Below are positions 7,376-28,212 of a DNA stretch of 34,731 nt, piece after piece; position 1 is the stretch's first letter; every line of letters starts with the position of its first letter. The position numbers were made by a program, and so were the translations under genes. Source of the stretch: a virus; IMG/VR virus record IMGVR_UViG_3300024348_000138, positions 1-34,731 of that record. One strand, 5' to 3'. The notes beneath the pieces are model-generated. The model saw only the letters and a list, made by a program, of their open reading frames with translations. It was not told where the DNA came from and did no database searches.

Positions 7376-7377
7376 TT

Positions 7378-7941: not shown

Positions 7942-7965
7942 ACAAAAAACAATATATTATAAATA

Positions 7966-8970
7966 ATGGGAGTACCTAAAACGCAAACGAACAAATTGAC
8001 TGAGGATGCAATAAACAAGTTTCCTGAGATGAGCAAGTCGGCAATAGCGAGATACTTACACGCTACCTACCCAACACACTTTAATAACATTGAGAATGCC
8101 AGGTCAATGATTAGGAAGTTAACAGGTGCGCAAGGGGATGGAAGGAGAAAATACAAACAGTTAGACCACACCCCTGCAATAGAAACCCAATTTAACTTAC
8201 CAAAGTCAGAGGGCAAGTCAAGAGAGTTCTACCATTTAGACAAGTCAATTAAAAACGCTTTAATCCTTTCAGACATTCACTTTCCTAATCATGATGCCGA
8301 AGCTTTAAGGAATGCTTTAATATACGGAAAAGAGAATAACATTGATTGTATTATATTAAACGGGGATATATTAGACAACGAACCATTTACAAACCACGAT
8401 GCACCACCTCAAAAGTTGACCGCAGTTGCTGATTGGTTTCAAATGGCAGAAGACTTCTTAGATATGTTGATTAAAGAGTTCAATGTACCGATACATTGGA
8501 CTGAGGGGAATCACGATAATTGGTATAAGAGATGGTTAATGAAGAAAGCCCCTATCTTATTCAATGATGCTTACTATACAATGTCATCAAGACTTAAGCT
8601 AAGAGAGAAAGGAATTAAATTCCATGACCAAGATGTCATCTTTATGGCAGGTAAACTTCCAATCACTCATGGTCATTTATTAGTAAGGGGCGCATTCTCA
8701 CCAGTGAATCCATCAAAGGGAATTTTCAACAAACTTAAAGGCTCAATGCTTATAGGACATTGCCACCAAACCTCTGAACACTCTGAGAGCTTACTTGACG
8801 GAACATTGATAACAACATACTCAACAGGATGTCTATGTACTTTGACACCTTCCTACGATCCTGTAAACCTTCGTCATAATCTTGGTTTTGCTCGTGTAGA
8901 AATAAAAGAAGGAGGCAATTATAAAGTTCATAATATTAGGATTGATTACTTTACTAAAAATGTTTATTAA
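7966..8970 (+). CDS. Calcineurin-like metallophosphoesterase with N-terminal HTH-like region
   Basis: A 334-residue protein. The first 60-70 residues are basic and helical and look like a DNA-binding or HTH-like module. From about 95 follows a calcineurin-like metallophosphoesterase domain with all metal-binding motifs: SDIHFP (about 102-107), NGDILD (about 132-137), EGNHDNW (about 180-186), THGHLL (about 227-232) and GHCHQ (about 265-269). Such enzymes cleave phosphomonoesters or phosphodiesters, including nucleic acid ends (Mre11/SbcD-like). The substrate here is unknown. The upstream DNA reads TATTATAAATAATG, a loose relative of the late-promoter element but without its upstream GTA box. 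Confidence 0.9.
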   Translation: MGVPKTQTNKLTEDAINKFPEMSKSAIARYLHATYPTHFNNIENARSMIRKLTGAQGDGRRKYKQLDHTPAIETQFNLPKSEGKSREFYHLDKSIKNALILSDIHFPNHDAEALRNALIYGKENNIDCIILNGDILDNEPFTNHDAPPQKLTAVADWFQMAEDFLDMLIKEFNVPIHWTEGNHDNWYKRWLMKKAPILFNDAYYTMSSRLKLREKGIKFHDQDVIFMAGKLPITHGHLLVRGAFSPVNPSKGIFNKLKGSMLIGHCHQTSEHSESLLDGTLITTYSTGCLCTLTPSYDPVNLRHNLGFARVEIKEGGNYKVHNIRIDYFTKNVY

Positions 8971-13423: not shown

Positions 13424-13452
13424 GTATTTTTAACCTTAATTAATATTATATA
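13424..13452 (+). promoter_or_regulatory. Late promoter-like element 1 (tail block)
   Basis: GTA at 13424-13426, a 17-base spacer, TATTATATA at 13444-13452, then four bases to the ATG at 13457. The same arrangement with identical spacing stands before 19519 and 22249. It lies in a 138-bp non-coding gap and does not match the host-type TAnnTTTG box. A start site about seven bases past the AT box would fall on the start codon, implying a leaderless mRNA. Confidence 0.6.
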
Positions 13453-13456
13453 GATA

Positions 13457-14686
13457 ATGGCAGTTACATTTATTCAACAACCTGACTTATTCGTTAGCGG
13501 TTTTGACCCAATAATTTATTTGGCGAGTTCTAACCAAACCACCCAAACCAACTTCAGGTATCGCATTCAAGTCTTAGATGCTTCGGCAAATGTAATCACT
13601 GAGTTAAGAAAACCTGCTTACTACGCTGACGGGACTGTGGACTTAGATGCTCATAGAATTATTGAGAACTATTTGTCTTATGACATGACTAACTTAATCG
13701 CAGGTTCGGTTGGTTTCAAAACGGGAGTTAATGTGTTTAAGAAGTTTAAAGTAAACATAAGAGAGGAATACGGAGCAGTCATTAGCGGTTATGCCAGTGC
13801 CGAGAGTACTTACATTTATGCTATCAATTCAGCGCAGACCTATTTAAAACAAATTAACAATCCTATTGATGACTTGGTTTATAAAGGCATCCCGACAACC
13901 TCAGGTACATTCTTGACTAACCAACCAAGTACGATAGACATAAGAGTTGGGGATTCTTACGAGCTTGGATTCTTGAACTATGCGACAAACGGCACAAACC
14001 AAATGAGAGTTAAGACTTATGATTTGTCAGGAACGCTACTTAAGAATAGTACATTTACAAATACTTGGGTTGCTGACACAACGGACAAGGAACACTTCTT
14101 ATCGGTCTTAGTTGGTGCAGGTAATCTTAACTCTTGGACAGTGGCGACGGGTTCGGCTCAACCTATGATTGCGGATAACGTGGCGAAGTATGAGATTACT
14201 TTTGAGAACAGTTCAAATACAAGCGTATCAAATACCTTGACTTTTAAAATTGATCGTGAGTGTACTCGTGACGGAAACTACAATAGATTGTTTTGGCTTA
14301 ATTCTTTAGGCAGAATGGATGCGTTTAATTTCACTCAAATTGCTGACGACAATATAACCGTAGAAAGTAGTAATTATAATCGACTACAAGGGACAAGAAC
14401 AAGCGCAGGGATAACATTCAATACTTACTCACACGAACGAAGTAACTTCTTTAACTCGAGCAAACAAAGATATACCCTTAACTCAGGTTATGTAAACTCT
14501 GAAACAAGTCTTTGGCTTAAAGAGTTAGTTCAAAGTCCTTTGATTTATATGATTATAGACGGTCAGTTTGTGGCGGTCAACATCTTGACTACGGAATACC
14601 AGGCGAAGTCAACTATCAAAGACAAGTTAATTAACGTGACTATGGAAGTGGAATTGAGTGCTGACACTAAAAGACAAAGATTGTAA
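13457..14686 (+). CDS. Tail structural protein (probable)
   Basis: A 409-residue protein predicted to be mostly beta-strand, with an N-terminal domain that opens FIQQPDLFVSGFDPIIYLAS and repeating Ser/Thr/Asn-rich strands through the middle. A C-terminal region (about 310-409) resembles a second beta domain. No enzymatic motif is visible. It is preceded by the late promoter-like element and joined to the 970-residue tail tip gene by a TAATG overlap. Location between the tail completion gene and tape measure suggests a distal tail or tail-tip component. Family not recognised beyond common occurrence in phages of Bacteroidota. Confidence 0.7.
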   Translation: MAVTFIQQPDLFVSGFDPIIYLASSNQTTQTNFRYRIQVLDASANVITELRKPAYYADGTVDLDAHRIIENYLSYDMTNLIAGSVGFKTGVNVFKKFKVNIREEYGAVISGYASAESTYIYAINSAQTYLKQINNPIDDLVYKGIPTTSGTFLTNQPSTIDIRVGDSYELGFLNYATNGTNQMRVKTYDLSGTLLKNSTFTNTWVADTTDKEHFLSVLVGAGNLNSWTVATGSAQPMIADNVAKYEITFENSSNTSVSNTLTFKIDRECTRDGNYNRLFWLNSLGRMDAFNFTQIADDNITVESSNYNRLQGTRTSAGITFNTYSHERSNFFNSSKQRYTLNSGYVNSETSLWLKELVQSPLIYMIIDGQFVAVNILTTEYQAKSTIKDKLINVTMEVELSADTKRQRL

Positions 14687-17598
14687 TGCGTAATGAACTT
14701 GTAATAGGAGGATACTCCATAGATACCATTGAAGACTTAGACATCAACATCACTAAGGAAGTCTACAACATAGATGACCCGTCTAAAAGACAATCGGACT
14801 TTAGCAAGTCGGTCGATATACCAGGCAGTAAGTTAAACGATTTTGTATTTAAGTCTTTGTTTGATGTATCGTTCTCAATCAGAAACTCAGACCAACTCAA
14901 TCCCGACTTTAACCCAAGCAAGAAGGCATCTTGTATTTACTACCAAGATACACTCCAACAAATAAGCGGTTACTGTCAGCTCAACGAAATTAAAGTCTTA
15001 AACAATGACCAGGTAACTTACTCAATAACTATCTACGGAAAGAACATAGACATTTTTAGTAAGCTAACCGACAAGACTCTTAATGACCTGACTACATTAG
15101 GGACTGCGACTTGGAATGACACTGAGATAGTAAATAGTTGGACTGCAACTTTTAACCCTACAATTAAACTTACTTATCCTATGTTAGATAGGGGAGTCAG
15201 TAAGTATGGAAGAAACACTGACGCAAGTTCAAATCTAAGTTATAACTATAACGCCTTTAAACCTTTTATTTATGTTAAGCATTTAGTTGATGCAATCTTC
15301 AATGAGGCAAAAGTGCCGTTAGAGGTTGCAACTTTTTTTAATACAACACAATTCCAAAAGATAATTCTTGAGTGTGATGTCGCTAAGTTTCAAATGAATC
15401 AAGGCGAAAAGGATGCAAGTATAGTAACTGCAACAAGGTCAACAAATCAAACAATAGGCATAGTGTCAACTGCAAATGCAGGAAACCTAAGTTTAGTTTA
15501 TGCAAATGCGTTTCAATATAACATAACGGGGTTAGACCCTTTAAGCCAGTACAACGCAACAACGGGAACATTTACAAAACTTGTAAACGGTTATACAAAT
15601 TTTGAAGTAGAGGCATTTATAAATGTAGTAAATACTACTGGTCCATTAGGTAGATTATACATTTACGCTATCCGTAAACGAGGAACTGATTATAGAGTAA
15701 TAGGTAATGCATATTTAAAGATACTTGCAGGTTCAAGTACAACACAAAATTTTAGAATAACGGTTGACTCAGAAGAACTATTGGCAGGGGATGAGGTTAG
15801 GTTTTGCATAGGTAATTTTTATTTAGGTTTAACAGGAGGCACAATAGACAATAGTACAATTACTGGGATTACATTTATTAGTACATCCGCAAATAGCTAC
15901 ACTCAATATGTTGATGGGCAAATAGAATACAATCAAACATTTTATATTGCGGATATACTCCCTAAACTAAAACAAACAGACTTTCTAATGGCAATCATAA
16001 AGATGTTTAATTTGTACATGAGTCCTATTTATGAGAATGGAGTTGTGATAGAGCCGAGAGATACTTACTACACTTCGGATATAGTTGATTGGACGGAGTT
16101 ATTAGATACTTCCAAAGACTTTACAATTAAGCCTCAGGGACTATTAGAGAATAAAGAATTAGTGTTTACTTATGCGGACAATGGCGATGACTTAAATAAG
16201 GATTTTAAACAAGCGACTTCATTTAACTACGGATATAGAGACTTAATATTTGATAACGAGTTTGTAAAAGAGACTAAGAAAGTAGAGATACCTTTTTGTT
16301 TAATACCACTCGAGGCAGACGATGACAAAAACATAATGATGCGAACCATCTTTGATGCAATGTCTCAGGAGAAAAGTCCTAAGCCTATTATTGCTTACTT
16401 TGGGGGCATGAAGTCAGGGAGATTAAGGTATTGGAATTACAACAACACAACTGCAACCGATTATACAACTTATCCTTTTGCTGGACACATCGATGACTTA
16501 ACCGCTCCAAACTATGACCTTGCGTTTGATGTTCAAGATTTTTATTATTATCTAACTCCTAATTCAAATGGCGTTACCACAACGGATAACAACCTATACA
16601 ACCAATTCCACAAATCACAATGGGAGCAAATCGGTAATAAGGATTCTAAGTTGATTGAAGCTTACTTTAATTTAAGACCAAATGATATTGCAAACTTAGA
16701 CTTCCGTAAGACTTATTGGATAAAAGATAATGCTTATCGATTATTGAGTGTTCAGGACTATGACCCCAACGGTGCATCTACAACTCTATGCAAGTTATTA
16801 AAGTTTGCTTACCAAGATGCTTTCGTTCCTACTATCCTGCAAACTAATGGAGGAAATGGACAAGGCGAGAAAGACGGTGGTTATAACACAACAAGTGGAG
16901 TAATTAAGAAAGGCATCCTTGCAACGGGTGGCAATGTCATAAACGATAACACTGTCGGCATAGTTGTAACGGGTAAAGGCAATAACTTAGGTGGCGACAA
17001 CTCAAATGTAATGATTGCAGGGGATAACAACATTATCTTACCAGGCATTACGGATGTAATGTTAATCAATACAAGCAATTTAACAATCGCAGAGAGTCAC
17101 GTTACCTACATTGACGGCATTCAATATACTGCTACTAAGAAGTACGGAGCGTTTCACGATTCAAGTATTCAACCTGCAATAGTAGCTAACACAAATTATG
17201 CAATTACATTTACTGACACTGATTTAAGCAACGGAATAACAATAGGTTCTCCAAGCTCACGAATCGTATTTGCTAACTCAGGAGTCTACAATATTACTTT
17301 TAGTGTTCAATTCGTTAATCAATCAGTTCAAATTCAAGATGCAAATATATTTTTAAAATTAAATGGCACAAATATCCCGAGTTCAAACAGTCATGTATCA
17401 ATACATGGCACACATGGAGGTGTGCATGGTCATGTTATTGCAACGGTTAATTTCATGATGCAAGTAAACGCTAATGACTATATTGAATTAGTCTTCAACG
17501 CAACGGCAACGGATGTCTCAATCGAGACTATTCCTTTAATCGTAACTCCAAGTACACCTGCATCCCCATCCGTTATCCTAACTTTACAACAAATTTAA
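14686..17598 (+). CDS. Large tail tip/baseplate protein with C1q-like C-terminal domain
   Basis: A 970-residue protein, the largest here. The N-terminus (about 1-130) has the pattern of a baseplate hub domain: YNIDDPSKRQSDFSKSVDIP and GYCQLNEIKVLNNDQ. A beta-sandwich-like insertion lies about 240-420. The central part is mixed alpha/beta. From about 735 a glycine/asparagine-rich run (GILATGGNVINDNTVGIVVT and similar) looks like a short beta-helix. The last 140 residues (from about 825) form a C1q/TNF-like jelly roll, with aromatic, alternating hydrophobic strands such as FANSGVYNITFSVQF. Such terminal domains bind host surface structures, so this is a receptor-binding candidate. It lies between a beta-rich tail gene and the tape measure gene. 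Confidence 0.78.
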   Translation: MRNELVIGGYSIDTIEDLDINITKEVYNIDDPSKRQSDFSKSVDIPGSKLNDFVFKSLFDVSFSIRNSDQLNPDFNPSKKASCIYYQDTLQQISGYCQLNEIKVLNNDQVTYSITIYGKNIDIFSKLTDKTLNDLTTLGTATWNDTEIVNSWTATFNPTIKLTYPMLDRGVSKYGRNTDASSNLSYNYNAFKPFIYVKHLVDAIFNEAKVPLEVATFFNTTQFQKIILECDVAKFQMNQGEKDASIVTATRSTNQTIGIVSTANAGNLSLVYANAFQYNITGLDPLSQYNATTGTFTKLVNGYTNFEVEAFINVVNTTGPLGRLYIYAIRKRGTDYRVIGNAYLKILAGSSTTQNFRITVDSEELLAGDEVRFCIGNFYLGLTGGTIDNSTITGITFISTSANSYTQYVDGQIEYNQTFYIADILPKLKQTDFLMAIIKMFNLYMSPIYENGVVIEPRDTYYTSDIVDWTELLDTSKDFTIKPQGLLENKELVFTYADNGDDLNKDFKQATSFNYGYRDLIFDNEFVKETKKVEIPFCLIPLEADDDKNIMMRTIFDAMSQEKSPKPIIAYFGGMKSGRLRYWNYNNTTATDYTTYPFAGHIDDLTAPNYDLAFDVQDFYYYLTPNSNGVTTTDNNLYNQFHKSQWEQIGNKDSKLIEAYFNLRPNDIANLDFRKTYWIKDNAYRLLSVQDYDPNGASTTLCKLLKFAYQDAFVPTILQTNGGNGQGEKDGGYNTTSGVIKKGILATGGNVINDNTVGIVVTGKGNNLGGDNSNVMIAGDNNIILPGITDVMLINTSNLTIAESHVTYIDGIQYTATKKYGAFHDSSIQPAIVANTNYAITFTDTDLSNGITIGSPSSRIVFANSGVYNITFSVQFVNQSVQIQDANIFLKLNGTNIPSSNSHVSIHGTHGGVHGHVIATVNFMMQVNANDYIELVFNATATDVSIETIPLIVTPSTPASPSVILTLQQI

Positions 17599-17601
17599 AC
17601 A

Positions 17602-19476
17602 ATGGCAAAAACTAAAATAGAAGTCGACCTCGTCATCAAAGGTGGCGAGTCAGTAGAAAAAGTCGAACAAAAGACCAAGAGTCTTAAAGCGCAGTTAAAA
17701 GAGATGAAAGCCTTATTGGCTTCGGGAACTTTAGACAATGAAGCGTTTAATAAGTTATCATTTGAGGCTGGACAATTACAAGATAAGATTGCCGATGTAA
17801 GTTTAAAAGTAAACAACCTTGCTTCGGATAGTAGAAAACTTGACGGGTTTATTGGAATCACGCAAGGCATTGTCGGTGGGTTCTCAGCAGTTCAAGGAAT
17901 TACGGCTTTAGTTGGTGATGAAAGCGAAGACCTGCAAAAGACAATGATTAAGTTGCAAAGTGCGACTGCAATCTTGTCAGGATTACAAACTATTCAAAAC
18001 TCTTTACAAGAGGAAAGTACTTTCATGATGGGTATTGCTGACCTTAAAACAAAGGCATTAGCAATATCAACTAAATTGTATTCATTTGCAACCTCAAGCG
18101 CAAGTCAAGCCACAAATGCTTTTCGTGTAGCAATGATAGGGCTATCAACTGCAGGTATAGGAATAGCTTTGGTTTTTATAGGAAAGTACATTGAACAATT
18201 AAACCGTCAGAAAGAAGCAGACAAAGAAAGATTAAAATCATTGAATGAGTACAATGATGAACTAACGCAAAATACTGCTCAGTCAAAAGTACAAATTACC
18301 GCAGTCAAGCAATTAGAAACTATCTTAAACGATAGCAATAAAACATTAGAACAAAAGAAAACTGTCTATAAAGAATTACAAACTTTAATACCTGCTTTAT
18401 CCGATTACACCTATGAACAAGCAAAGGCTGAAGGTGTATTGAATAATGCAATTACAAATGAGATAGCTTTAATTGGTTTGAGAGCTAAGGCAACCGCCCT
18501 TGAAAATTATGTTGTTAAGGAAGAAGAAAAGAAACTTGCACAACAACAATTGTTAAATGCAGTTAAGCAAGTAAATGATTTAGCAAAAATAAATAAACTA
18601 AAGGCAGACGGAAACCTTGTAACTGAAATAAGCACTAAAACTGTTGTCAAGGCTTTAACACCATTGGAGCAACTTGCAAAGGTCAACGAAGATATCTTAG
18701 ACTTACAAACAAAACAAAATATCATTGCAGAGAAAGGCACTAAAATAAATGTTGATACAGTTAAAAGTCCAAAAGAAACTCAAGCAGAAATTAACGCAAG
18801 AGTCGCTAAATCAATTTTAGAACAAGAGAAAAGAGATGCTGAACAATTAATAGAATTAGAAGAAGAGAAAGTCGATAGGTTTGCAAAGGTCAGAGCAGTT
18901 GATACGGAGAATATTGTTAAAGATTCTCAAAGTAGATTATTTACTTTAGGAGAATATAATAGAGCGGTTATAAGTGCAGAACAAGATTTATCCGATGCAA
19001 AAAGAAACGCATTAGAAACAGGGTTCAATATTGCTAATCAATTCACTGGCAAGAACAAAGCTTTAGCAGATACATTGTTTGCAATTCAAAAGGGAGTTGC
19101 CATTGCACAAATTGTAATTGATACACAAAAGGAAATTGCAGGATACTATTCTAATCCTACATGGAAGCTATTGCCTGACGGTGGTTTGTCTTTAGCATCA
19201 GCCGCAAGTGCAGGGGCAAAGATTAGAGCGGCTACAAGTATAGCTTCTATTGGTGCAACAACTATCGGAAAGTTTATGAACGGTGGCAGTGCTTCAAGCG
19301 GTGGAACTTCAGGCGGTGGAATTGGCAATGTGTCAAGTCAACCTCCGAGAATGGATAAGTTTGAAAGCAACCGACCTGCGATGAATCCTAATCAAAGAGT
19401 CTATGTTTTAGAAAAAGACATAACCGATTCTCAAGGTAGAGTTGCCAGGATAAGACACAATGCAACTTTGATTTAA
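17602..19476 (+). CDS. Tape measure protein
   Basis: A 624-residue protein dominated by heptad-rich helices with long Glu/Lys/Gln coiled coils (about 1-80 and 205-460). A hydrophobic patch of one or two membrane-spanning-like helices (AMIGLSTAGIGIALVFIG, about 176-193) sits inside them. The C-terminus has small-residue helices, a Gly/Ser-rich stretch and a short globular tail. This is the standard tape measure design. At about 0.15 nm per residue it would measure a tail of roughly 90 nm, which indicates a siphovirus. It lies 3 bp after the tail tip gene and ends at the second late promoter-like element. Confidence 0.9.
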   Translation: MAKTKIEVDLVIKGGESVEKVEQKTKSLKAQLKEMKALLASGTLDNEAFNKLSFEAGQLQDKIADVSLKVNNLASDSRKLDGFIGITQGIVGGFSAVQGITALVGDESEDLQKTMIKLQSATAILSGLQTIQNSLQEESTFMMGIADLKTKALAISTKLYSFATSSASQATNAFRVAMIGLSTAGIGIALVFIGKYIEQLNRQKEADKERLKSLNEYNDELTQNTAQSKVQITAVKQLETILNDSNKTLEQKKTVYKELQTLIPALSDYTYEQAKAEGVLNNAITNEIALIGLRAKATALENYVVKEEEKKLAQQQLLNAVKQVNDLAKINKLKADGNLVTEISTKTVVKALTPLEQLAKVNEDILDLQTKQNIIAEKGTKINVDTVKSPKETQAEINARVAKSILEQEKRDAEQLIELEEEKVDRFAKVRAVDTENIVKDSQSRLFTLGEYNRAVISAEQDLSDAKRNALETGFNIANQFTGKNKALADTLFAIQKGVAIAQIVIDTQKEIAGYYSNPTWKLLPDGGLSLASAASAGAKIRAATSIASIGATTIGKFMNGGSASSGGTSGGGIGNVSSQPPRMDKFESNRPAMNPNQRVYVLEKDITDSQGRVARIRHNATLI

Positions 19477-19485
19477 CTCTATATT

Positions 19486-19514
19486 GTATCTTACTATTAA
19501 ATAAATATTATATA
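19486..19514 (+). promoter_or_regulatory. Late promoter-like element 2 (capsid block)
   Basis: GTA at 19486-19488, 17 bases, TATTATATA at 19506-19514, four bases, then the ATG at 19519. It occupies almost all of the 42-bp gap after the tape measure gene. Spacing is identical to elements 1 and 3. This is the start of the protease-capsid-tube gene set, which ends at the terminator at 22184-22215. Confidence 0.6.
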
Positions 19515-19518
19515 ATCA

Positions 19519-20676
19519 ATGAAGCTACCTTTATATGTTTTGGACATTGACGAGAACTTGGAGGATGAAACCTCAGTATTCGCAGTTGGCTTAGTTTTGC
19601 AACCTGCCATTGAGCGTAACTGGCACACTTTTTCTGCTGAAGAACCTGCAATAGAACACAAATTTACTGTAGTAGATGAGGAAAAGAAGATATTAGGTGG
19701 CTTCTTAATGATTGCAGAACAACCAATTTACCGCAAAGATGAAGACGGGACTGAGTATTATGTCAAATTTACCTCAGAAAGCATTGCAAGAATAGTTAAT
19801 AAACTTGCAAAGAGTGGCAAACCGCTAAGTTTCAACCTTAATCATGATGATAACAAACCCGTTAAAGGGGCTTATTTACTAAGTCACTTCATTATTGATA
19901 GCAAATTAGGGATGAAAACCCCTGAGAATTTTACTCCTGCGCCTGACGGCTCATGGTTTGGATACGTTAAAATAGAAGACGATGCGGTTTGGGACATGGC
20001 AAAGACTGGAGAAATAAGAGGATTCTCGGTAGAGGGTTACTTCAACGATAAAAAGGTAGATGAAGCCGATCAAAAAGAATACGAAGACATCAAAAATAAA
20101 ATCATCAATAATATGGAATTTAATAAATTAAAAAAGGTCTTGGGCGAAGACCTAACTAATCAACTTAAAAAAGTTTTTAGTGAAGAAACCCCTGCTCCTG
20201 CGATTGAGTTCGTAGAGACAAGCTTATTAGACGGAAGTGCAATCGTTAAAGGTACTATCGCAGTAGGCGAAACAGTTACTTTGGTAATGCCTGACGGTAG
20301 CGAAGTTCCTGCTCCCGATGGAGAACACACTTTAGAAGGTAATGTAGTTATAACTGTATTGGATGGAGTTATTGCAGAAGTAGCAACTGCTGAAGAAGAA
20401 AGCCCATTGAATGACGAAGCATTAATGAGTAAAGTAAACGAAGCATTGGAAGCTCAGGCAAATGACTTTAACAATCAAATCGCTGACATCCACTCTAAGT
20501 ACGCTCAAGAAATTGAAGCACTAAACGCAAAGACAACCGCTTTATTTAGCGCAGTTGGAATCTTAGCAAAGACCGAAGAAGTTGAAGTAGTAAGCAATGA
20601 TGCAAAAAGAAAAAGTGCATCAGTAAGCGCAACTCAATTTAGTAGATTAACTGAAATATTAAACAAAATAAAATAA
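19519..20676 (+). CDS. Prohead protease (XkdF-like) fused to scaffold
   Basis: A 385-residue fusion. The N-terminal domain (about 1-180) resembles the XkdF-type phage serine protease: FTSESIARIVNKLAK, then SFNLNHDD near 107-114 (probable catalytic His), and TGEIRGFSVEGYF near 163-175 (probable catalytic Ser in the GFSVEG strand). The remainder is acidic and helical with a coiled coil (about 300-350), fitting an internal scaffold removed during head maturation; a small beta-like insertion lies about 230-295. It is directly upstream of the major capsid gene. An ATG inside the gene (20113) preceded by A/T-rich sequence may yield a separate scaffold. Confidence 0.82.
   Translation: MKLPLYVLDIDENLEDETSVFAVGLVLQPAIERNWHTFSAEEPAIEHKFTVVDEEKKILGGFLMIAEQPIYRKDEDGTEYYVKFTSESIARIVNKLAKSGKPLSFNLNHDDNKPVKGAYLLSHFIIDSKLGMKTPENFTPAPDGSWFGYVKIEDDAVWDMAKTGEIRGFSVEGYFNDKKVDEADQKEYEDIKNKIINNMEFNKLKKVLGEDLTNQLKKVFSEETPAPAIEFVETSLLDGSAIVKGTIAVGETVTLVMPDGSEVPAPDGEHTLEGNVVITVLDGVIAEVATAEEESPLNDEALMSKVNEALEAQANDFNNQIADIHSKYAQEIEALNAKTTALFSAVGILAKTEEVEVVSNDAKRKSASVSATQFSRLTEILNKIK
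20113..20676 (+). CDS. Possible internally initiated scaffold protein
   Basis: An in-frame ATG at 20113 lies exactly where the protease domain ends and the acidic scaffold region begins. The preceding bases (AAATCATCAATAAT) are A/T-rich like those before other starts in this genome. Translation from here would give about 187 residues starting MEFNKLKKVLGEDLTNQL. Lambda (C and Nu3) and other phages make their scaffold from such a nested start. This is a proposal from sequence position only; no experiment supports it. Confidence 0.35.
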   Translation: MEFNKLKKVLGEDLTNQLKKVFSEETPAPAIEFVETSLLDGSAIVKGTIAVGETVTLVMPDGSEVPAPDGEHTLEGNVVITVLDGVIAEVATAEEESPLNDEALMSKVNEALEAQANDFNNQIADIHSKYAQEIEALNAKTTALFSAVGILAKTEEVEVVSNDAKRKSASVSATQFSRLTEILNKIK

Positions 20677-20686
20677 ATAAAATAAG

Positions 20687-21649
20687 ATGAAACTTAAAAA
20701 ATTTGCATACGACACCACTGGTCTTCCAGCAGTCGTTAACGACCAATCATTAGAATTGCTTATCCGTTCTTTCTACGAAGGAAAGACAGGAGCTACATTC
20801 GCTAAACAAACAGGTATCAAGAGTACTGCTGATTTGCATTACATCACTACTGAATTGTTCTACCAAGCTGATACTGCTTGTGCGTTTAACGCATCAGGTA
20901 AGACTGGTTTCTCAAAGAGAACTATCACTGTAGGTAAAATCAAAGTTCAGCAAGAATTTTGCGCTAAAGAACTTGAAGGTTTTTGGACTGAGAGAGCATT
21001 GCGTCCAGGCACCATGTATGACTACATTGCATTCGAAGCTGACTTCACTAACTTCCTTGTAGGTTTGTTGACTGAAGCTAAAGAAACTGCTCTTTGGCAG
21101 TCTGCAATCGGTGGTTCAGGTGGTTCTAACTTAACTCAATTTGATGGTTTCAACAAAATCATTTTAGATGCAAGTGCAACTACAATCAACGGTAACCCTA
21201 CAGGTATCACTACAGGAACAGGCATCACATCTGCTAACGTAATAGGTATATTCGATGGTATGTGGGCAGTTCTTCCAGCAAAGTTGAAAGGCAAAGCAGA
21301 CTTACAGTTTTATGTAGGTGGCGACACTTTTGACAAATTGATCCTTGCTTTGAAATCTGCAAACTTATTCTACTACGATGGTGTAAACGGAAGTGCTTAC
21401 CAATCTCAAGAATTAATCTTGCCAGGAACTGGAATCAAGGTTGTAGCTTACTATGGATTAGACGGTACTAACAGAATCCACTTAGGTAGAACTTCTAACT
21501 TTGTAATCGGAACTGACTTAGAGTCTGACGAAGATATGTTCAACATCCGTGAGAATCCAATCTCTTTGACTATGATGTTAGACATCCACTTCAAACTTGG
21601 AACTCAAGTGAAATTCCCGAATGAAATCGTAACATTTAAATTAGTATAA
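20687..21649 (+). CDS. Major capsid protein
   Basis: A 320-residue protein, right after the protease/scaffold gene, of the size expected for an HK97-fold major capsid protein without a long propeptide. The N-terminal arm is short, then a helix with LLIRSFYEGKTG, a central glycine-rich region (about 145-180, GGSGGSNLTQF) like the flexible loop, and a C-terminal domain ending in ENPISLTMMLDIHFKLGTQV, a strand usual at the end of such proteins. The gene has a markedly different codon look from its neighbours, with many C- or T-ending codons such as GGT, AAC and ATC, as expected of the most highly expressed gene. The gap to the next gene is 2 bp. Confidence 0.85.
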   Translation: MKLKKFAYDTTGLPAVVNDQSLELLIRSFYEGKTGATFAKQTGIKSTADLHYITTELFYQADTACAFNASGKTGFSKRTITVGKIKVQQEFCAKELEGFWTERALRPGTMYDYIAFEADFTNFLVGLLTEAKETALWQSAIGGSGGSNLTQFDGFNKIILDASATTINGNPTGITTGTGITSANVIGIFDGMWAVLPAKLKGKADLQFYVGGDTFDKLILALKSANLFYYDGVNGSAYQSQELILPGTGIKVVAYYGLDGTNRIHLGRTSNFVIGTDLESDEDMFNIRENPISLTMMLDIHFKLGTQVKFPNEIVTFKLV

Positions 21650-21651
21650 TC

Positions 21652-22167
21652 ATGGCTTGTTTACTATCAACTGGATTCACATTGGACTGCCGAGATAGTA
21701 TTGGCGGAGTCGATGAAGTTTACATAGGCGAGTTAGAGTATTTGAACACTGCTACTTTTGCAAGTTCAGCGGGTGCGGTAACTGTAATGGCAATGACGGG
21801 TGGCAAAAAGTTCTATAAGTATGAACTTAGAAGAAACACGGCAGAAGCTAAAGCGGACAACGCAGGTGAGGTTACAAGCGGAAGCGGTTACATCATGCAA
21901 AGTGTTGAATTTTCTTTAGATAAGTTCGATGTTGCTAAACGTAACGAAATTAGAGTACTTGCGCAAAAACCTTTGATGTTTATCGTTAAAGACAAGAACG
22001 GTTTGTTTAGTTTGTATGGTTCTGAGAATGGTTTAGACCTTTCTACAGGAACGGCAGGAACTGGAAAAGCGGCAAGTGACCTTAATGGTTTCGTTCTAAC
22101 ATTTACAGGCGAAGAAAAGACTTATCCTTTGGGAGTTTCTCAAGCGATTGTCACTTCTTTGATTTAA
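21652..22167 (+). CDS. Probable major tail (tube) protein
   Basis: A 171-residue, beta-rich protein beginning LLSTGFTLDCRDSIGGVDEV. The middle has alternating hydrophobic strands and a strand-loop (RNTAEAKADNAGEVTSGS) resembling the loop of tail tube proteins of the gpV/major tail protein fold. It is placed 2 bp after the capsid gene and ends just before a strong terminator, so it is co-expressed at a high level. Tube identity is inferred from fold pattern, size and co-transcription with the capsid gene; a head decoration or other minor head protein is the main alternative. Confidence 0.6.
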   Translation: MACLLSTGFTLDCRDSIGGVDEVYIGELEYLNTATFASSAGAVTVMAMTGGKKFYKYELRRNTAEAKADNAGEVTSGSGYIMQSVEFSLDKFDVAKRNEIRVLAQKPLMFIVKDKNGLFSLYGSENGLDLSTGTAGTGKAASDLNGFVLTFTGEEKTYPLGVSQAIVTSLI

Positions 22168-22183
22168 TCAATTATAAATAATT

Positions 22184-22215
22184 AAAGGGAGGCTTTAGGG
22201 CTTCCCTTTTTTTTT
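22184..22215 (+). terminator. Strong rho-independent terminator after capsid/tube genes
   Basis: A ten-pair stem (AAAGGGAGGC with GCTTCCCTTT, one G-U pair) closes a 6-base loop TTTAGG. The stem is followed by a run of nine T (22207-22215). It follows the tail tube gene by 16 bp and should end the 19519-22167 transcript. Genes downstream therefore need their own promoter, and the only candidate is the element directly adjoining the T run. Confidence 0.9.
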
Positions 22216-22244
22216 GTACTTATTTAAGTTTTAAATATTATATA
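22216..22244 (+). promoter_or_regulatory. Late promoter-like element 3 (portal block)
   Basis: GTA at 22216-22218 begins immediately after the terminator T run; 17 bases later TATTATATA occupies 22236-22244, then four bases to the ATG at 22249. As this is the only DNA between a strong terminator and the portal operon, a promoter is expected here, which makes this copy the best evidence for the element's role. Confidence 0.68.
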
Positions 22245-22248
22245 AGTA

Positions 22249-22641
22249 ATGATAAGACTTAATTTAGGAAGTAATGTGGTTGTATTGACTTTATCCGAAA
22301 AGGTAACCATTGCAACGCCTAAGTTTCTTTTTGAGTTTATTAACAATCAGACTCAACAAAAGTACTATTGCATTGCAAGTGATACGAGCCTCTACACGGA
22401 TAGATATAATAAGTTTAACATTATAGTTAAGACAACCACTCCGAGTCCTTTAATTGGCGAAATACAAATACCTTTAGGGGATGAGTACACTTACAATGTA
22501 TACGAGCAGGTAAGTTCAACTAATTTAGTGCCTACTGGTTTGACTGTAGTTGAAAACGGACTGATGACTTATGATAAGACGATGACTTCACGGATTCAAA
22601 ACGAATCAACCTTAACACGCATAGCCTATGAGCCAAACTAA
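22249..22641 (+). CDS. Hypothetical structural protein (portal-adjacent)
   Basis: A 130-residue beta-rich protein with no recognised enzymatic motif. Two strand-rich halves are visible: the N-terminal part with VVVLTLSEKVTI and the C-terminal part with GDEYTYNVYEQVSS. It starts 4 bases after the late promoter-like element and overlaps the portal gene by 14 bp. Its expression with portal and connector genes suggests a minor virion component or assembly factor. Proteins of this size and composition recur in phages of Bacteroidota, where they are mostly listed as hypothetical. Confidence 0.6.
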   Translation: MIRLNLGSNVVVLTLSEKVTIATPKFLFEFINNQTQQKYYCIASDTSLYTDRYNKFNIIVKTTTPSPLIGEIQIPLGDEYTYNVYEQVSSTNLVPTGLTVVENGLMTYDKTMTSRIQNESTLTRIAYEPN

Positions 22642-24604
22642 TAACTATTCATTCTCTAAGTTTCCACTTTATGCGAATGAAACGCCCATTTTTCGCAAAC
22701 AACCTAATATGGTTTATGTGCCTTATGGTAAGAACAATGATTATTCAGATTATCTTTCGTATCTATATAATAACTCAGGAATACACGGAGCGATTATAAA
22801 AGGTAAGGCAACTTATATTTTTGGCAAAGGTTTTAAAATTAAAGCCGATTGGAATGGAGACAAGATAGGTTTACAAAGAACTTTAAACTCAATTAATAAT
22901 AGTCAGACGGCTGATGAATTAGCAAGAAAGAAAATCTTTGAAAGAACTCTTTATGGTGGTTGTGCATACTTAATTGAATGGGATGTTTTTGGTAACATGA
23001 AAAGTGTCAAGCTTCAACCATTTAACACAATTAGAACTTGCGTAGATAAGTCAGAGTTTTACATCTCTAAGGAATGGACAAGAGAACAAAGCACTAATTC
23101 TAAATGGAAAAAGTCAAACGGTCGCTTACCTGAAGACACGGTTACATTACCAGCGTTTAACCCACTTAAAAGAGAGGGCAAACAAATCCTTTATTTAATA
23201 GACGATAATCCTGCGAGTGATATATACCCATTACCCGAATACAATAGCGGTGCTACACCGATTGAAACGGACATTGAGTGCAACTTCTTTCAGTTAAACA
23301 ATGTTAAAACGGGCTTCTCAGCAGGAACAATGGTTACTTTCTTTAATGGAACGGCTATAAATGACGAAGAGCAAATTGAAATTGAACACGCTTTTAAAAG
23401 TAAAGCTTCAGGCACGGACAACGCAGGAGAAATACTTTTAAACTTTCAGAATCCAAACACAACCGCTCCGACAATTAGTCCTTTGCGTTCTAATGACTTG
23501 GATAAACAATATGAGCAATTAAGCAAGGACACGATAAATAAGATTCTTTATTCTCATAGAGTTTCTAACGGTTTACTTTTTGGAATTAAGACTCCAGGCG
23601 AATTGGGTGGAGGTAGGTCAGAGTTTGATTTGTCTTGGGAACATTTTTCCAATACCTATGTAAAGCCTAAACAACAAGAGGAAGAAGAGGACATGAACTA
23701 TATTCTTTCTTTGTACGGATTCATAGGTAACCCGGTAGAGTTGACTACACTCGATCCAATTGGAATTGAGTTGACAAGTGAAGTAATTAGCAGAACGATT
23801 GATGCCGATTCATTTGCTGATATGGTTTATATGCGTTTAGGAATTGAAAAGCCTAACCTTGTTAAGAAGGATGACATCTTAACTACAATTAATAGTGCAA
23901 GTCCTTTGGTTGCTAACAAGATTTTGGATAGTTTAACCACTAACGAAATAAGGAGCATTATTAATCTTCCTGCAATAATTGGGGGCGATACAACAAAAAC
24001 GAGCGCATTCAGTCAAGAAGAAGATTTTATCCTTGCAAAGTTTTTAGAGATTGGCGAACCTGCCGAGAATTACACGATAGTAAAATCTTGTTTTGTTTAC
24101 TCTGATTCTGAGAATTTCGCAAAAGAAGATGACGATAAATTAATCGAGGCGATAAAGAAAAACAAGAAGATTAAAATCTCTGACTTGGCTAAGAAATTAG
24201 GACTAAGCGAGAGTGAAATTTACAAATCTTTAGAACGATTAAATAAAAGTAATACTTTACTTGTTGACTACACCGAAACCAACGGAGAGATAAGCATAAC
24301 TCCTAAAGAGATTCAAGAGCCACCGACTCAAGAAGTAGGCTTGGAAACTAAATGGAGATATACAACAAATTTAAGCCCTGAACTTTTAGAGACAAGTAGA
24401 AAGTTTTGTGTTGATTTGATAACTGCAAAACAATTATATTCACGAGCGCAAATAGATGCAATGCAAAATGAAGCAAGTACAAGAGGTTATAATGATGATG
24501 TATTTAAGTATAAAGGCGGTTGGCAAACTATCAAAGGGACAGTCACTCATATTCCATCATGCAGACATTTTTGGGAATCGGTCTTAGTAAAAAAGAATAA
24601 ATAG
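22628..24604 (+). CDS. Portal protein with extended C-terminus containing a winged-helix
   Basis: A 658-residue protein. The first 480 residues fit a siphophage portal, the ring through which DNA enters the head: an N-terminal arm; NSGIHGAIIKGKATYIFGKGF (about 40-60, written in pieces here) that begins the clip/wing fold; a long central acidic helix region (QQEEEEDMNYIL, about 348-359); and the stem/wing helices around 380-440. After that comes an unusual extension: a winged-helix-like segment IKISDLAKKLGLSESEIYKS (about 517-536), then a terminal domain with PSCRHFWESVLV (about 641-652), whose Cys/His may bind metal. Portals usually end near 450-500 residues. It overlaps the upstream gene by 14 bp. 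Confidence 0.85.
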   Translation: MSQTNNYSFSKFPLYANETPIFRKQPNMVYVPYGKNNDYSDYLSYLYNNSGIHGAIIKGKATYIFGKGFKIKADWNGDKIGLQRTLNSINNSQTADELARKKIFERTLYGGCAYLIEWDVFGNMKSVKLQPFNTIRTCVDKSEFYISKEWTREQSTNSKWKKSNGRLPEDTVTLPAFNPLKREGKQILYLIDDNPASDIYPLPEYNSGATPIETDIECNFFQLNNVKTGFSAGTMVTFFNGTAINDEEQIEIEHAFKSKASGTDNAGEILLNFQNPNTTAPTISPLRSNDLDKQYEQLSKDTINKILYSHRVSNGLLFGIKTPGELGGGRSEFDLSWEHFSNTYVKPKQQEEEEDMNYILSLYGFIGNPVELTTLDPIGIELTSEVISRTIDADSFADMVYMRLGIEKPNLVKKDDILTTINSASPLVANKILDSLTTNEIRSIINLPAIIGGDTTKTSAFSQEEDFILAKFLEIGEPAENYTIVKSCFVYSDSENFAKEDDDKLIEAIKKNKKIKISDLAKKLGLSESEIYKSLERLNKSNTLLVDYTETNGEISITPKEIQEPPTQEVGLETKWRYTTNLSPELLETSRKFCVDLITAKQLYSRAQIDAMQNEASTRGYNDDVFKYKGGWQTIKGTVTHIPSCRHFWESVLVKKNK

Positions 24605-24606
24605 AA

Positions 24607-25179
24607 ATGAGTTTAAAACCACTTTTCGTATCAACCGCAACCATTAAAAAATATGGTGTAATAGAGAACAATGTCGATGACAAGTTGATTGCTCAGACTA
24701 TTATAATGGTGCAAGATTTACAACTTCAACAAATATTAGGAAGTGACCTTTATAATGAAATTGCAAACCAAATAAACGCATCTACTCTAACGGGGTTAAA
24801 TCAAACTTTGTTAGATGAGTATATTCGTGACTTTATTATCAATGCAACCATTGCTGATGGGGCGATAATATTTAACTATCGTTTTTCTAATAAGGGCGTA
24901 GTAACTCAAAATAGCGACAACCAACAACCAGTATCTCAAAGAGAGCTTGAATTGATTGAGCAAAAATGGGGGCGTATGGCTGAGTTTTACGGTAAAAGAC
25001 TAAGCGGTTATTTAGCTGAGAACTCTAATATTTACCCTTTGTGGATGTCAGGCAATAATAAACTACAAGACATTCAATCAAGAGAATTAGGATATAGCAC
25101 AGGTTTCTTTTTAGGCAGGTCAAGACGAACAACAACAAACAATGAGCGAAAATACTACCCCTACTGCAAAGACTGCTAA
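24607..25179 (+). CDS. Head-tail connector-like protein (DUF6712-like)
   Basis: A 190-residue helical protein directly after the portal. The N-terminal helices with LIAQTIIMVQDLQLQQILG and LYNEIANQI fit the four-helix design of gp6/gp15-like adaptors that dock under the portal. The central insert is polar and the C-terminus is basic and disordered. Position after portal, small size and all-helical form point to an adaptor of the connector complex. The 3' end overlaps a 32-residue ORF by 38 bp. Family name is an estimate by resemblance. Confidence 0.62.
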   Translation: MSLKPLFVSTATIKKYGVIENNVDDKLIAQTIIMVQDLQLQQILGSDLYNEIANQINASTLTGLNQTLLDEYIRDFIINATIADGAIIFNYRFSNKGVVTQNSDNQQPVSQRELELIEQKWGRMAEFYGKRLSGYLAENSNIYPLWMSGNNKLQDIQSRELGYSTGFFLGRSRRTTTNNERKYYPYCKDC

Positions 25180-25240
25180 TAAAAAAATCACTAAGAAGAA
25201 TCTTCAGAAGTTAATGATTTACATTGAAAAGAAAAAATGA
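25142..25240 (+). CDS. Hypothetical 32-residue lysine-rich peptide
   Basis: A very short ORF inside and beyond the end of the connector gene in another frame. It is joined to the next gene by ATGA (25237-25240), the main evidence that it is translated. The product is Thr/Lys-rich (MSENTTPTAKTANKKITKK at its start) and probably disordered with one terminal helix. It may serve chiefly to couple translation across the junction. Confidence 0.5.
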   Translation: MSENTTPTAKTANKKITKKNLQKLMIYIEKKK

Positions 25241-25665
25241 TAACTAAGAACACCTTATATCAATACTTCAAGGACTTTGCAGACAACCATTTGCAAATTA
25301 AAGACTATGGTTATGGCGACCTTTGGGAAATTAGTGCGTCTCAAGCTACGCAATACCCTTTATTTTGGGTAAGTCCGCAACCGAGTAACATCTCAGGTAA
25401 CGATATAATATATAACTTCAGTATTTTAATAGGCGATAGGGTTGAAGACGGCGAAGGTAATAAAGTAGAAATTGAATCGGATACTTTTCAAATTGGTTTA
25501 GACTTATTTGCAACTCTTAATCTTCACACTGAATTAGACCTGGATAAGACATCAACATTTACCCCATTTGTACACGATTTCAAAGACAAAATTGCAGGAC
25601 ATTTAATTACCTTAAGCGTATCAGCTCCTTTTAATTATGACGAATGTGCAATACCACAACTATAA
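25237..25665 (+). CDS. Tail terminator/tail completion-like protein
   Basis: A 142-residue protein with an N-terminal helix (LYQYFKDFADNHLQIKDYG), a beta-sheet centre (PLFWVSPQPSNISG and following strands) and an acidic region (GDRVEDGEGNKVEIESD). This alpha/beta form, with an FSILIGDR strand and conserved aromatic positions, is typical of tail terminator proteins that cap the tail tube at the head end. Order portal-connector-terminator supports the call. No closer family recognised. Confidence 0.58.
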   Translation: MITKNTLYQYFKDFADNHLQIKDYGYGDLWEISASQATQYPLFWVSPQPSNISGNDIIYNFSILIGDRVEDGEGNKVEIESDTFQIGLDLFATLNLHTELDLDKTSTFTPFVHDFKDKIAGHLITLSVSAPFNYDECAIPQL

Positions 25666-25683
25666 AAAAAATAAAAAAATAAT

Positions 25684-25950
25684 ATGACAAGTTTAGAAAG
25701 AATTTCAGGAGCAGTCGGCAGTCAATTAGTAACTGGCACTTCCACAGTAACAAGAGTATTCAGCGCTTTAAGCATCAACGCTGATGCGGTAATAGCCGAG
25801 ATTTACTATGACAACGATTTAGTTACAAACCAAGTAACGGCATTGGGAATTAATGCCCAAACATTGACTGCAGGATCGATTATGTTTTGCAAAAACGATG
25901 TGCAATTTGGCAAAATTAAATTAACTTCAGGCTCGGTTTTTATACACTAA
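25684..25950 (+). CDS. Hypothetical 88-residue virion-associated protein
   Basis: A small beta-rich protein with alternating Ala/Thr/Ser strands and no charged enzymatic motif (for example VTRVFSALSINADAVIAEIY). It follows the tail terminator by 18 bp and precedes the lectin-like tail protein by 2 bp. Small beta-rich proteins in this place of related phages are often tail or head-decoration components. Function not established from sequence. Confidence 0.58.
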   Translation: MTSLERISGAVGSQLVTGTSTVTRVFSALSINADAVIAEIYYDNDLVTNQVTALGINAQTLTAGSIMFCKNDVQFGKIKLTSGSVFIH

Positions 25951-25952
25951 TT

Positions 25953-26765
25953 ATGTTAACTGTTGGACTAAATTTAAAGCCAAGAGTTAAGAAAGGTTTT
26001 GACTCTGATGCACAGGCATTCTTTACACGGGTAACGGTTGCAGGTGGAACACTTTCCGCAACGGAAAAACTTGCGACTAATCAACTTGTACTTGATTTAA
26101 AGAGTGCAGGGATATGGACATCAATGAAGGCTATCTACCCAATGGTTGGTGCAAGTGCAGCAGCTTGTGCACAAAATCTTGTGAGTTCAAGTTTTACGGG
26201 TAGTTTTACTTCAGGATGGACATTTGCAAGTACTGGTGTAACGCCCAATGGAACTAGCGCGTTTATGAATACTACATTAAATGGGACACAATTAAATGTA
26301 AATAGTCAAAGTTTATCTTACTATTCAAGAACTAATAATCAAGGGTTAATAGATATAGGAATACAAATATCAGCACAAAGAAATTCATTATCATTGCTTA
26401 GAACATATGGAGGTATTCCAAATAGTTCTGTTAGTGATTTACAAAATGCTGGTATAGGTGAAGCTACAACAAATGCCATTAATAATTCAACTGGTTTATA
26501 TACTGGAAGTAGGACAAGTGCAACAAGCAACAAATTATATAGAACTGGTTCTGTTATTGCCACAAATACGGCTAATTGGCTAGCGGTGTCTTCTCTCAAT
26601 TTAAATTTCTATATAGGTGGAAATAATAATAATGGAAGTGCAACTGCATTTTCTAGCCATGAATGCGGCTTAGCTAGCATTGGAGATGGTTTAAACGATA
26701 CACAAGCCACAAACCTTTACACAGCAGTACAAACATTTCAAACAACATTATCAAGACAAGTTTAA
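25953..26765 (+). CDS. Tail protein with lectin-like domain, receptor-binding candidate
   Basis: A 270-residue protein. A helical N-terminus (FDSDAQAFFTRVTVAGG) contains the pattern DAQAFFTRV followed by a short helix and IWTSMKAIYPMVGASAA. The rest is a beta-sandwich rich in Asn, Ser, Thr and Gly (for example TPNGTSAFMNTTLNGT and LNFYIGGNNNNG), like concanavalin-type lectin/glucanase folds. Proteins with this opening recur near the tail genes of phages of Bacteroidota. A role in binding a surface glycan is plausible. The second half (about 26290-26680) has more T-ending and A-ending codons than the first, consistent with a variable, exchanged tip region. Confidence 0.65.
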   Translation: MLTVGLNLKPRVKKGFDSDAQAFFTRVTVAGGTLSATEKLATNQLVLDLKSAGIWTSMKAIYPMVGASAAACAQNLVSSSFTGSFTSGWTFASTGVTPNGTSAFMNTTLNGTQLNVNSQSLSYYSRTNNQGLIDIGIQISAQRNSLSLLRTYGGIPNSSVSDLQNAGIGEATTNAINNSTGLYTGSRTSATSNKLYRTGSVIATNTANWLAVSSLNLNFYIGGNNNNGSATAFSSHECGLASIGDGLNDTQATNLYTAVQTFQTTLSRQV

Positions 26766-26776
26766 AATAAAATAAT

Positions 26777-27001
26777 ATGAAAGGTTATCAATTAACAATA
26801 GAACAAAAAGAATCAATTCAAGGAGTGGAATATACTCCTTATCAATTTTTCAACTGTGTTCAAGACATCAACAATGTATGGTTTACTTTTTTGTCAGAAT
26901 CTGACATAGTAGCAATTACCGACTCTGAATGGTCTTGGATATTAGATTGTCCATTAGTAGAGTATGTTCCACCAACGCCACCGCCATTCCCTAACGAATA
27001 A
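26777..27001 (+). CDS. Hypothetical 74-residue protein
   Basis: A small acidic protein with several Trp and Tyr residues (NNVWFTFLSESDIV, EWSWILD) and a proline-rich C-terminus (VPPTPPPFP). No family recognised. It follows the lectin-like gene by 11 bp and precedes the lysis block by 14 bp. It could be a tail fibre assembly helper, as small proteins just downstream of tail tip genes sometimes are; the sequence itself does not show this. Confidence 0.5.
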   Translation: MKGYQLTIEQKESIQGVEYTPYQFFNCVQDINNVWFTFLSESDIVAITDSEWSWILDCPLVEYVPPTPPPFPNE

Positions 27002-27015
27002 TTCTCTGATACCAT

Positions 27016-27192
27016 ATGAAACACATGAACGATAACATAGCTGACCTACTACTTACAACAAGTTTTCTCGGCACGATTGCCCATTACTCTTCACTTATGC
27101 AACCTATCGTGAGTTTACTTGCTGGACTAATTGCAATTGTATCAGGTGTCTTTGCAATAAGATACTATTATTTAAAATCAAAAAATGGCTAA
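27016..27192 (+). CDS. Small membrane protein, holin candidate
   Basis: A 58-residue protein with one or two hydrophobic segments: a weak one near DLLLTTSFLGTIAHY (about 10-24) and a strong one at about 31-52 (VSLLAGLIAIVSGVFAI). It ends with a Lys/Ser-rich tail. Small size, polar tail and placement shortly before the endolysin suit a holin or holin partner. An alternative ATG lies three codons later. It overlaps the next gene by 8 bp. Confidence 0.58.
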   Translation: MKHMNDNIADLLLTTSFLGTIAHYSSLMQPIVSLLAGLIAIVSGVFAIRYYYLKSKNG

Positions 27193-27307
27193 AGCAAAAG
27201 TAGAACTTAAGTCTTTCAGAAAGAAAGCAAAAAAGAACGGAAAAGGAATCCATTCAAAAAACAATAAACCATTAAAGAAATATAGGGGGCAAGGCAAATG
27301 TCGATGA
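27185..27307 (+). CDS. Hypothetical 40-residue, highly basic protein
   Basis: A 40-residue protein of which roughly 40% is Lys or Arg (VELKSFRKKAKKNGKGIHSK and following). It overlaps the holin candidate by 8 bp and the next membrane gene by ATGA. Similar very short basic proteins are common in this genome area of phages from Bacteroidota. Nucleic-acid or membrane-surface binding is possible on charge alone; function unknown. Confidence 0.58.
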   Translation: MAKAKVELKSFRKKAKKNGKGIHSKNNKPLKKYRGQGKCR

Positions 27308-27513
27308 GAAAAACAAATACACCAAAATGGCTAAGTGTAACCAGGAAGATAATGATTTACATAGGAGGGGCAACTTTCCTGCCAATGCTATTTGGTAAAA
27401 TAGGAATTAAAGATGTTGAGTTTGCTTTACAATGTTGGCTTGGAGCTTTAGGATTGTTGCAACTTTACATCGATAGTAAGTACAAAAAAGAGCAAGACAT
27501 TTATAAAGCATGA
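27304..27513 (+). CDS. Membrane protein, holin candidate
   Basis: A 69-residue protein (71 from the alternative ATG at 27298) with two hydrophobic segments: about 15-30 (IMIYIGGATFLPMLFG) and about 40-55 (ALQCWLGALGLLQLYI). Both termini are charged. Two-helix proteins directly upstream of an endolysin are typical class II holins, which form the membrane lesion timing lysis. The 27304 start gives an ATGA overlap with the preceding basic peptide gene, the pattern usual in this genome. The stop overlaps the endolysin start by ATGA. Confidence 0.7.
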   Translation: MRKTNTPKWLSVTRKIMIYIGGATFLPMLFGKIGIKDVEFALQCWLGALGLLQLYIDSKYKKEQDIYKA

Positions 27514-27983
27514 TTGACCAAATAACTTTAGACCGAATAGAACTTCTACATCCAAAGATAAAAGAAGAGGCTAAGGCTTTATACTCCGAGATATGTCAAA
27601 CGCTCTCTAATGGAGTTATATGCCGTTTCTCGCACACATTAAGAACAATTGAAGAGCAGAACGCTTTATATTCTAAAGGGCGTTCAATTAAAGGGCAGGT
27701 TGTAACTAACGCAAAAGGCGGACAATCGTTCCACAATTTTGGTTTAGCAATAGATATAGTTTTAATCGTGGATGGTAAGGCAAGTTGGGAGCGTGGCAAA
27801 GACTTTGACAAAGACGGTCAGGCAGATTGGATGGAAGTTGTAAAGATATTTAAAAAGTACGGATGGTTTTGGGGTGGCGAATTTAGAACCTTTAAAGATT
27901 ATCCGCATTTTGAAAAGACATTTGGGTTGACAACTAAACAATTAAATAACAAAGAAAAAATAGGTAACTATCCAAAATTATAG
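27510..27983 (+). CDS. Endolysin, M15 family peptidase (VanY-like)
   Basis: A 157-residue peptidoglycan peptidase. The zinc site of M15 peptidases is complete: H75 and D82 in SFHNFGLAID (S-x-H-x-x-G-x-A-x-D) and the third ligand H133 in YPHFE. RFSHTLRTIEEQNALYSKG (about 39-57) is the usual preceding segment of phage L-alanyl-D-glutamate peptidases of this group. No signal peptide or extra binding domain is present, so export through a holin lesion is expected. It follows the holin candidate by ATGA and is itself followed by a terminator 46 bp downstream. Confidence 0.93.
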   Translation: MIDQITLDRIELLHPKIKEEAKALYSEICQTLSNGVICRFSHTLRTIEEQNALYSKGRSIKGQVVTNAKGGQSFHNFGLAIDIVLIVDGKASWERGKDFDKDGQADWMEVVKIFKKYGWFWGGEFRTFKDYPHFEKTFGLTTKQLNNKEKIGNYPKL

Positions 27984-28029: not shown

Positions 28030-28055
28030 ACCTCTCAGGAATGGGGGGTTTTTTT
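28030..28055 (+). terminator. Rho-independent terminator after the lysis genes
   Basis: ACCTCTC (28030-28036) pairs with GGGGGGT (28043-28049) through a 6-base loop AGGAAT, using two G-U pairs. Seven T follow (28049-28055). It lies 46 bp after the endolysin stop and marks the end of the right-hand structural/lysis transcript. The sequence between 27984 and 28029 has a -7-like TATCTTTG at 27985 but no good -33 box, so an independent short transcript is only a weak possibility. Confidence 0.8.
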
Positions 28056-28148: not shown

Positions 28149-28177
28149 AATATTGTGTATCGCAATTTAAAATATAT

Positions 28178-28208
28178 TTTGTTTTGTAAGTTTTAAATTG
28201 TAATATTG
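28178..28208 (+). promoter_or_regulatory. Bacteroidota-type promoter for the 28213 operon
   Basis: TTTG at 28178-28181, then exactly 19 bases, then TAATATTG at 28201-28208. This matches the consensus TTTG-N19-TAnnTTTG with one mismatch in the -7 box. Transcription would start within a few bases of the ATG at 28213. Two operator-like direct repeats lie just upstream. Confidence 0.65.
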
Positions 28209-28212
28209 CAAA

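Follow-up and report, generated by a model that had tools for sequence, protein, structure and literature searches.

Putative late promoters with a rigid two-box spacing, and a candidate sigma factor to read them, in a small Bacteroidetes phage

What sequence switches on the structural genes of a small phage of Bacteroidetes bacteria, and what reads it? We took up this question in IMG/VR record IMGVR_UViG_3300024348_000138, whose entire 34,731 nucleotides we call the window. The first 305 nt of the window (1-305) are repeated at its end (34427-34731) with 6 mismatches, which makes it probable that the genome is circularly complete, with a length of ~34.4 kb; IMG/VR classes the record as linear. 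All genes lie in one orientation, and the structural genes form three plus-strand blocks. The tail block (13457-19476) is opened by gene 13457 and comprises a 409-aa gene, a 970-aa gene and a tape-measure-like gene. The capsid block (19519-22167) holds the head-maturation-protease-like gene 19519 and two head genes, and the portal block (22249-27983) consists of a small 130-aa gene (22249) just 5' of the portal gene, the portal gene itself, further genes and a VanY-type endolysin gene.

Two-box elements at the structural gene blocks

The preliminary description had reported that GTA-N17-TATTATATA-N4-ATG occurs before 13457, 19519 and 22249 only, and that these are the first genes of the tail, capsid and portal blocks. 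An exact search of the window returned just these three matches (13424-13459, 19486-19521 and 22216-22251), and the gene map bears out their placement; the same search found no copy on the opposite strand and no match to a reversed control pattern. All three elements are on the plus strand. Element A, before the tail block, has its -35-like GTA at 13424-13426 (invariant in 13/13 distinct relatives) and its -10-like TATTATATA box at 13444-13452, with the ATG at 13457. For element B, before the head protease/capsid block, the triplet is at 19486-19488 (context ATTGTA), the box at 19506-19514 and the ATG at 19519; for element C, before the portal block, the corresponding positions are 22216-22218 (context TTTGTA), 22236-22244 and 22249. 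Other gene starts in the window lack the element. At 7953-7968, TATATTATA-N4-ATG precedes a metallophosphatase-like gene and resembles the late box; we rejected it as a fourth copy (at 7966), since it has no GTA and its box decays in relatives.

Element C is further delimited by an intrinsic terminator (22184-22209, plus strand) that closes the capsid block directly upstream of it. The terminator described earlier is real, although its stem has 11 pairs followed by a T-run and not the ten pairs first counted. The accompanying claim that a promoter here must fit into about 33 nt also holds, with 33-40 nt left for it past the terminator. A second, terminator-like hairpin (28031-28048, plus strand) lies past the last late gene, at the end of the portal block. 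Scans of the window gave no Rfam match and no tRNA, and sigma-70 consensus sites occur at the expected number (51 versus 51.7).

Taken alone, the box is common: the window contains 33 sites with at most one mismatch to TATTATATA, about the chance expectation, and the portal gene contains a fourth exact copy, at 22764 on the minus strand. Because all leaders are A/T-rich, the similarity of the three leaders is only moderately unusual within the window alone, with 17 of 33 positions identical against a mean of 13.6-14.7 and a maximum of 17 in shuffles. The significance of the element thus lies in the spacing of its two boxes, its fixed place before the ATG and its conservation; on comparative evidence, the triple can be considered certain.

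Conservation and concerted change among relatives

We collected 45 relatives through the portal protein and more through alignments. A motif search in these genomes shows that the -35/-10 pair, and not A/T-richness alone, is kept before orthologous genes: GTA-N17-TAT(W)ATATA precedes them in dozens of relatives. The three GTA columns are conserved in 46/46, 45/46 and 46/46 sequences and the TAT/T positions of the box in 45-46 of 46, while the spacer columns vary. Among distinct sequences carrying GTA or GCA, all 47 (47/47) have a spacer of 17, whereas the distance from box to ATG varies: it is mostly 4, but 5 in several sequences and 3 in some. Since box spacing is fixed and ATG distance is not, the element follows the rule of a promoter and not that of a translation signal. 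A pattern scan of IMG/VR with spacer 17 agrees: among the matches listed, 38 of 114 loci code for relatives of the late genes, and at least 11 contigs carry two sites. At spacer 18, the matches listed include 3 such loci of 120 and no contig with two sites.

In phages at 53-58% portal identity, both boxes have changed, and they have changed alike at both loci. TTGCA-N17-CATATACC is found before genes B and C in relatives L083, L084 and L086 and before C in L081 and L085; in clade II contigs, 8/8 CATATACC sites precede these late genes. TTAAC-N17-TATATTAA precedes B and C in L046, with a similar element at C in L082, and in L128 a near-identical 30-nt stretch stands before a tail gene and gene C. 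The spacer stays at 17 nt in the changed clades, except for one of 16 in the Nonlabens phage P12024L and one of 15 in L128, and in every clade the first base of the box lies 11-14 nt 5' of the start codon.

Across 14 genomes in which genes B and C were picked by homology only, the B and C leaders of one genome match at 17.5 of 34 positions, against 14.35 in shuffled pairings (p = 2e-5). This analysis is a rerun of an earlier test that gave 0/20000 but included elements picked by eye. The signal stems from six nearer lineages; the far lineages mostly lack an element before B, and several very distant relatives (portal identity <32%) have no matching element there. Clade-specific boxes before the same structural genes are the behavior of promoters served by a dedicated factor and not of translation signals.

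A candidate phage sigma factor

The preliminary description had proposed that a phage-encoded or modified polymerase reads the elements, and a phage factor for this role probably exists: modeling, structure searches and profile links point to a cryptic sigma factor of 198 aa with a TTG start, encoded at 3933-4529 on the plus strand. Its layout is a region-2-like N domain, a hypervariable linker and a region-4-like helix-turn-helix (HTH). The protein has no significant Pfam or PHROGs match and no direct Pfam sigma-70 domain. AlphaFold2 predicts two helical domains joined by a disordered linker of variable length (low-confidence residues 73-130), and models of the family are of moderate confidence (pLDDT 63-73). 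Foldseek against the PDB returned almost only sigma factors, ECF types first, along the full length; against viral models, the top matches were unnamed phage proteins and phage RpoE/ECF sigma factors, with probabilities of 0.85-1.0 and modest, individually weak E-values (best 0.0015 viral, 0.024 PDB).

Profile comparisons point the same way. The family profile matches an ORF in the contig of L091 (E 1.7e-6) that also exceeds the Pfam Sigma70_r2 cut-off, and in hhalign the family aligns with L158 over both domains (E 2.7e-7) and with region 4 of L159 (E 2e-5). A direct Pfam sigma-70 match is confined to the distant homologue L159 and gp35 of P12024L and does not extend to the window protein; direct hhalign of the window protein against gp35 is not significant, and the two are linked via intermediates only. 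A PDB sequence search with A1 found nothing relevant, and tblastn of P0003 in named phages found no match. Another window protein, P0001 (1499-1978), has the same length as gp35 but resembles DnaA-C, and was rejected as the sigma factor. Overall, the structure search and profile links show, at the level of models and profiles, that the 3933-4529 product is a two-domain, ECF-like sigma factor.

Every near-complete genome that we examined from the window's clade has a sigma-like gene, as does P12024L. Directly behind this gene, the window carries a glycosyltransferase gene and several methyltransferase genes (4517-8970), and the order sigma gene, glycosyltransferase is kept in L107, L112, L157 and L158. 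In L045, which has GTA-N17 promoters, 22 of 28 HTH residues are kept in a protein that is just 54% alike as a whole; in L157, from a metagenome-assembled genome (MAG) with different promoters, 12 of 27 are kept. This contrast is suggestive of a pairing between sigma factor and promoter. The phage-like contig of that lineage (L154/L157; CALMKH010000179.1, an uncultured Bacteroidetes bin) has CATATA-N5-ATG before two late genes, and another contig of the bin carries a diverged copy of the sigma gene. Sigma factor and promoter have both changed in this lineage, which is one case; clades II and III are represented by short contigs without the sigma gene.

The sigma gene itself appears to be under host-type control. 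A host-like -7 element, TAATATTG (3713-3720, plus strand), kept in all relatives examined, lies before the short gene 3728, which precedes and overlaps the sigma gene. Its nearness to the host consensus TAHHTTTG fits a cascade from host sigma to phage sigma, in which the phage factor would be made early or in mid-infection. Host-like -7 elements (TAATATTG, TATCTTTG) also occur at ~28150-28210 and ~31000-31030, 4-6 nt before an ATG, and the early transcripts, too, may include near-leaderless ones.

Leaderless messages, alternative readings and known systems

Where would transcription from the late elements begin? With the first base of the window's TATTATATA box 13 nt from the start codon, the late mRNAs are predicted to have no leader or almost none. 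The -7 element of F. johnsoniae has its first base at -12, with transcription beginning 4-5 nt past the element (PMC6847099); this geometry would put the start on the ATG or one base before it. In phages 7-11 and phiEco32, transcription starts 6-9 nt past the box (PMC8948821), which would place it inside the start codon, so the exact point could shift by a few bases. The conserved N-termini speak for use of the annotated start codons. From this geometry we consider it fairly likely that the late mRNAs are leaderless or start within 2 nt of the ATG. The GTG start codon at both genes of L046 calls for caution with the leaderless reading, as GTG is unfavorable for leaderless initiation in E. coli. 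Late messages without a leader would be out of the ordinary, as only ~4-6% of messages in flavobacteria and Bacteroides lack a leader or have a very short one: leaderless mRNAs make up 5.5% in a related host (PMC9723704), leaders under 10 nt 3.7% of messages (PMC7366714), and host leaders in Bacteroidetes are mostly >10 nt (PMC6847099).

That the three elements are late promoters of the window phage is highly likely from the comparisons above, and their phage specificity, proposed at the outset, is strongly supported by conservation, invariant spacing and the joint change of both boxes in relatives. A role as operators or as other protein-binding sites, for a repressor, packaging or replication, is open to any repeated short site, and here would have to accommodate elements that are non-palindromic, strand-oriented, at a constant distance before first genes and absent elsewhere; we regard it as highly improbable. 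We give equally little credence to a translation-initiation signal with no promoter, an A/T-rich, Kozak-like leader suited to Bacteroidetes, which lack Shine-Dalgarno sequences. The conserved stretch does abut the start codon, and Flavobacterium translation favors A at -3 and -6 (PMC6847099), but such a signal should not be limited to the first genes of blocks, its most invariant part would hardly be a GTA 30-33 nt upstream that keeps its distance to the box and not to the ATG, and the terminator leaves no other room for promoter C.

A more serious alternative, though still an unlikely one, accepts the elements as late promoters but assigns their reading to a host sigma factor (the primary sigma-ABfr or a host ECF factor), or to host polymerase that a phage protein other than 3933-4529 modifies or activates. 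Bacteroidetes primary-sigma promoters carry TTTG and TAHHTTTG (PMC6847099); the TTGTA context of the -35 triplet is akin to the host -33 TTTG and comparably placed, a -33-like TTG being present in two of the three window copies, and flavobacteria have several ECF sigma factors (PMC9723704). The link between 3933-4529 and the promoters is, moreover, our inference. Against a host reader, the late box departs from TAHHTTTG at 3 of 6 fixed positions, in line with the preliminary claim that it does not fit the host consensus, while the sigma operon keeps the near-host TAATATTG. The rapid joint change of both boxes among close phages is hard to reconcile with a shared host factor, and the sigma-like gene is as consistently present as described above.

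We consider it probable that the candidate sigma factor reads the late elements, and likely that the reading as a whole is right: late promoters, one per structural block, read by the 3933-4529 factor and giving leaderless or near-leaderless messages. In the proposed mechanism, GTA would serve as the -35 element and TATWATATA as the -10 element, held apart by a rigid 17-nt spacer, and each promoter would drive one structural block. The reader would most probably be host RNA polymerase core with the ECF-like phage sigma, which we infer to bind the late elements, and transcription would begin at the ATG or within about two bases of it.

This would give a concrete late-gene switch, comprising a sigma factor that sequence searches leave unlabeled and its probable promoters, to a phage group of little-known regulation, whose structural genes need very strong expression in hosts whose translation does without Shine-Dalgarno signals. 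The changed boxes across clades form a natural experiment on how a sigma factor changes specificity together with every one of its promoters. We lean slightly toward the broader view that a family of Bacteroidetes phages makes leaderless late messages by way of a phage sigma factor that is cryptic and evolves fast, and that each lineage's promoter consensus has switched with the factor, several times in all. If true, the family would offer a natural series in which each sigma factor is paired with its matching promoters, at genome positions that stay fixed.

We found no paper on the late promoters of flavobacterial phages. The parallel with T4 drawn in the preliminary description is weak. T4 late promoters have a TATAAATA box and no -35 element, and are read by the sigma factor gp55 with the required co-activator gp33 and sliding clamp gp45. 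What is shared is an A/T-rich, -10-like late box, read in T4 with a phage sigma; here GTA at -35 is the most invariant part, and no gp33- or gp45-like genes were found among the proteins scanned.

The Nonlabens phages P12024L and P12024S (Inhavirus, NC_018272) are homologous in their late genes (28-33%) and have the sigma-like gp35, a Sigma70_r2 protein. P12024L (L049) differs in having its own consensus: six AAC-N16/17-CGTTAATATA-N2-ATG elements, with one or two bases varying, at 179, 3031, 5412, 24771, 26011 and 27612, before gp01, gp05, gp08, gp42, gp45 and gp46. The NC_018272 record does not annotate these elements and calls gp35 hypothetical, adding no more than a domain note. They resemble classical ECF sigma promoters, whose signature is AAC-N16/17-CGT (in part from PMC9723704).

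The closest working model, by analogy and with no membership of the same sigma family implied, is that of phages 7-11 and phiEco32. In phage 7-11, the sigma factor SaPh711_gp47 works with host core RNA polymerase at bipartite late promoters (GTAAtg-16-aCTA) before structural genes; phiEco32 has another consensus, tAATGTAtA, at similar genome positions, and its sigma factor is 15% identical to that of 7-11 (PMC8948821). As both consensus and sigma differ between these two phages, factor and promoters have diverged together. The window elements are likewise bipartite, with a fixed spacer, and confined to late genes. The 7-11 system differs in that its host is an enterobacterium and in that its description makes no mention of leaderless messages (PMC8948821), and what sets the phages studied here apart from both is that several consensus switches have occurred within one phage family.
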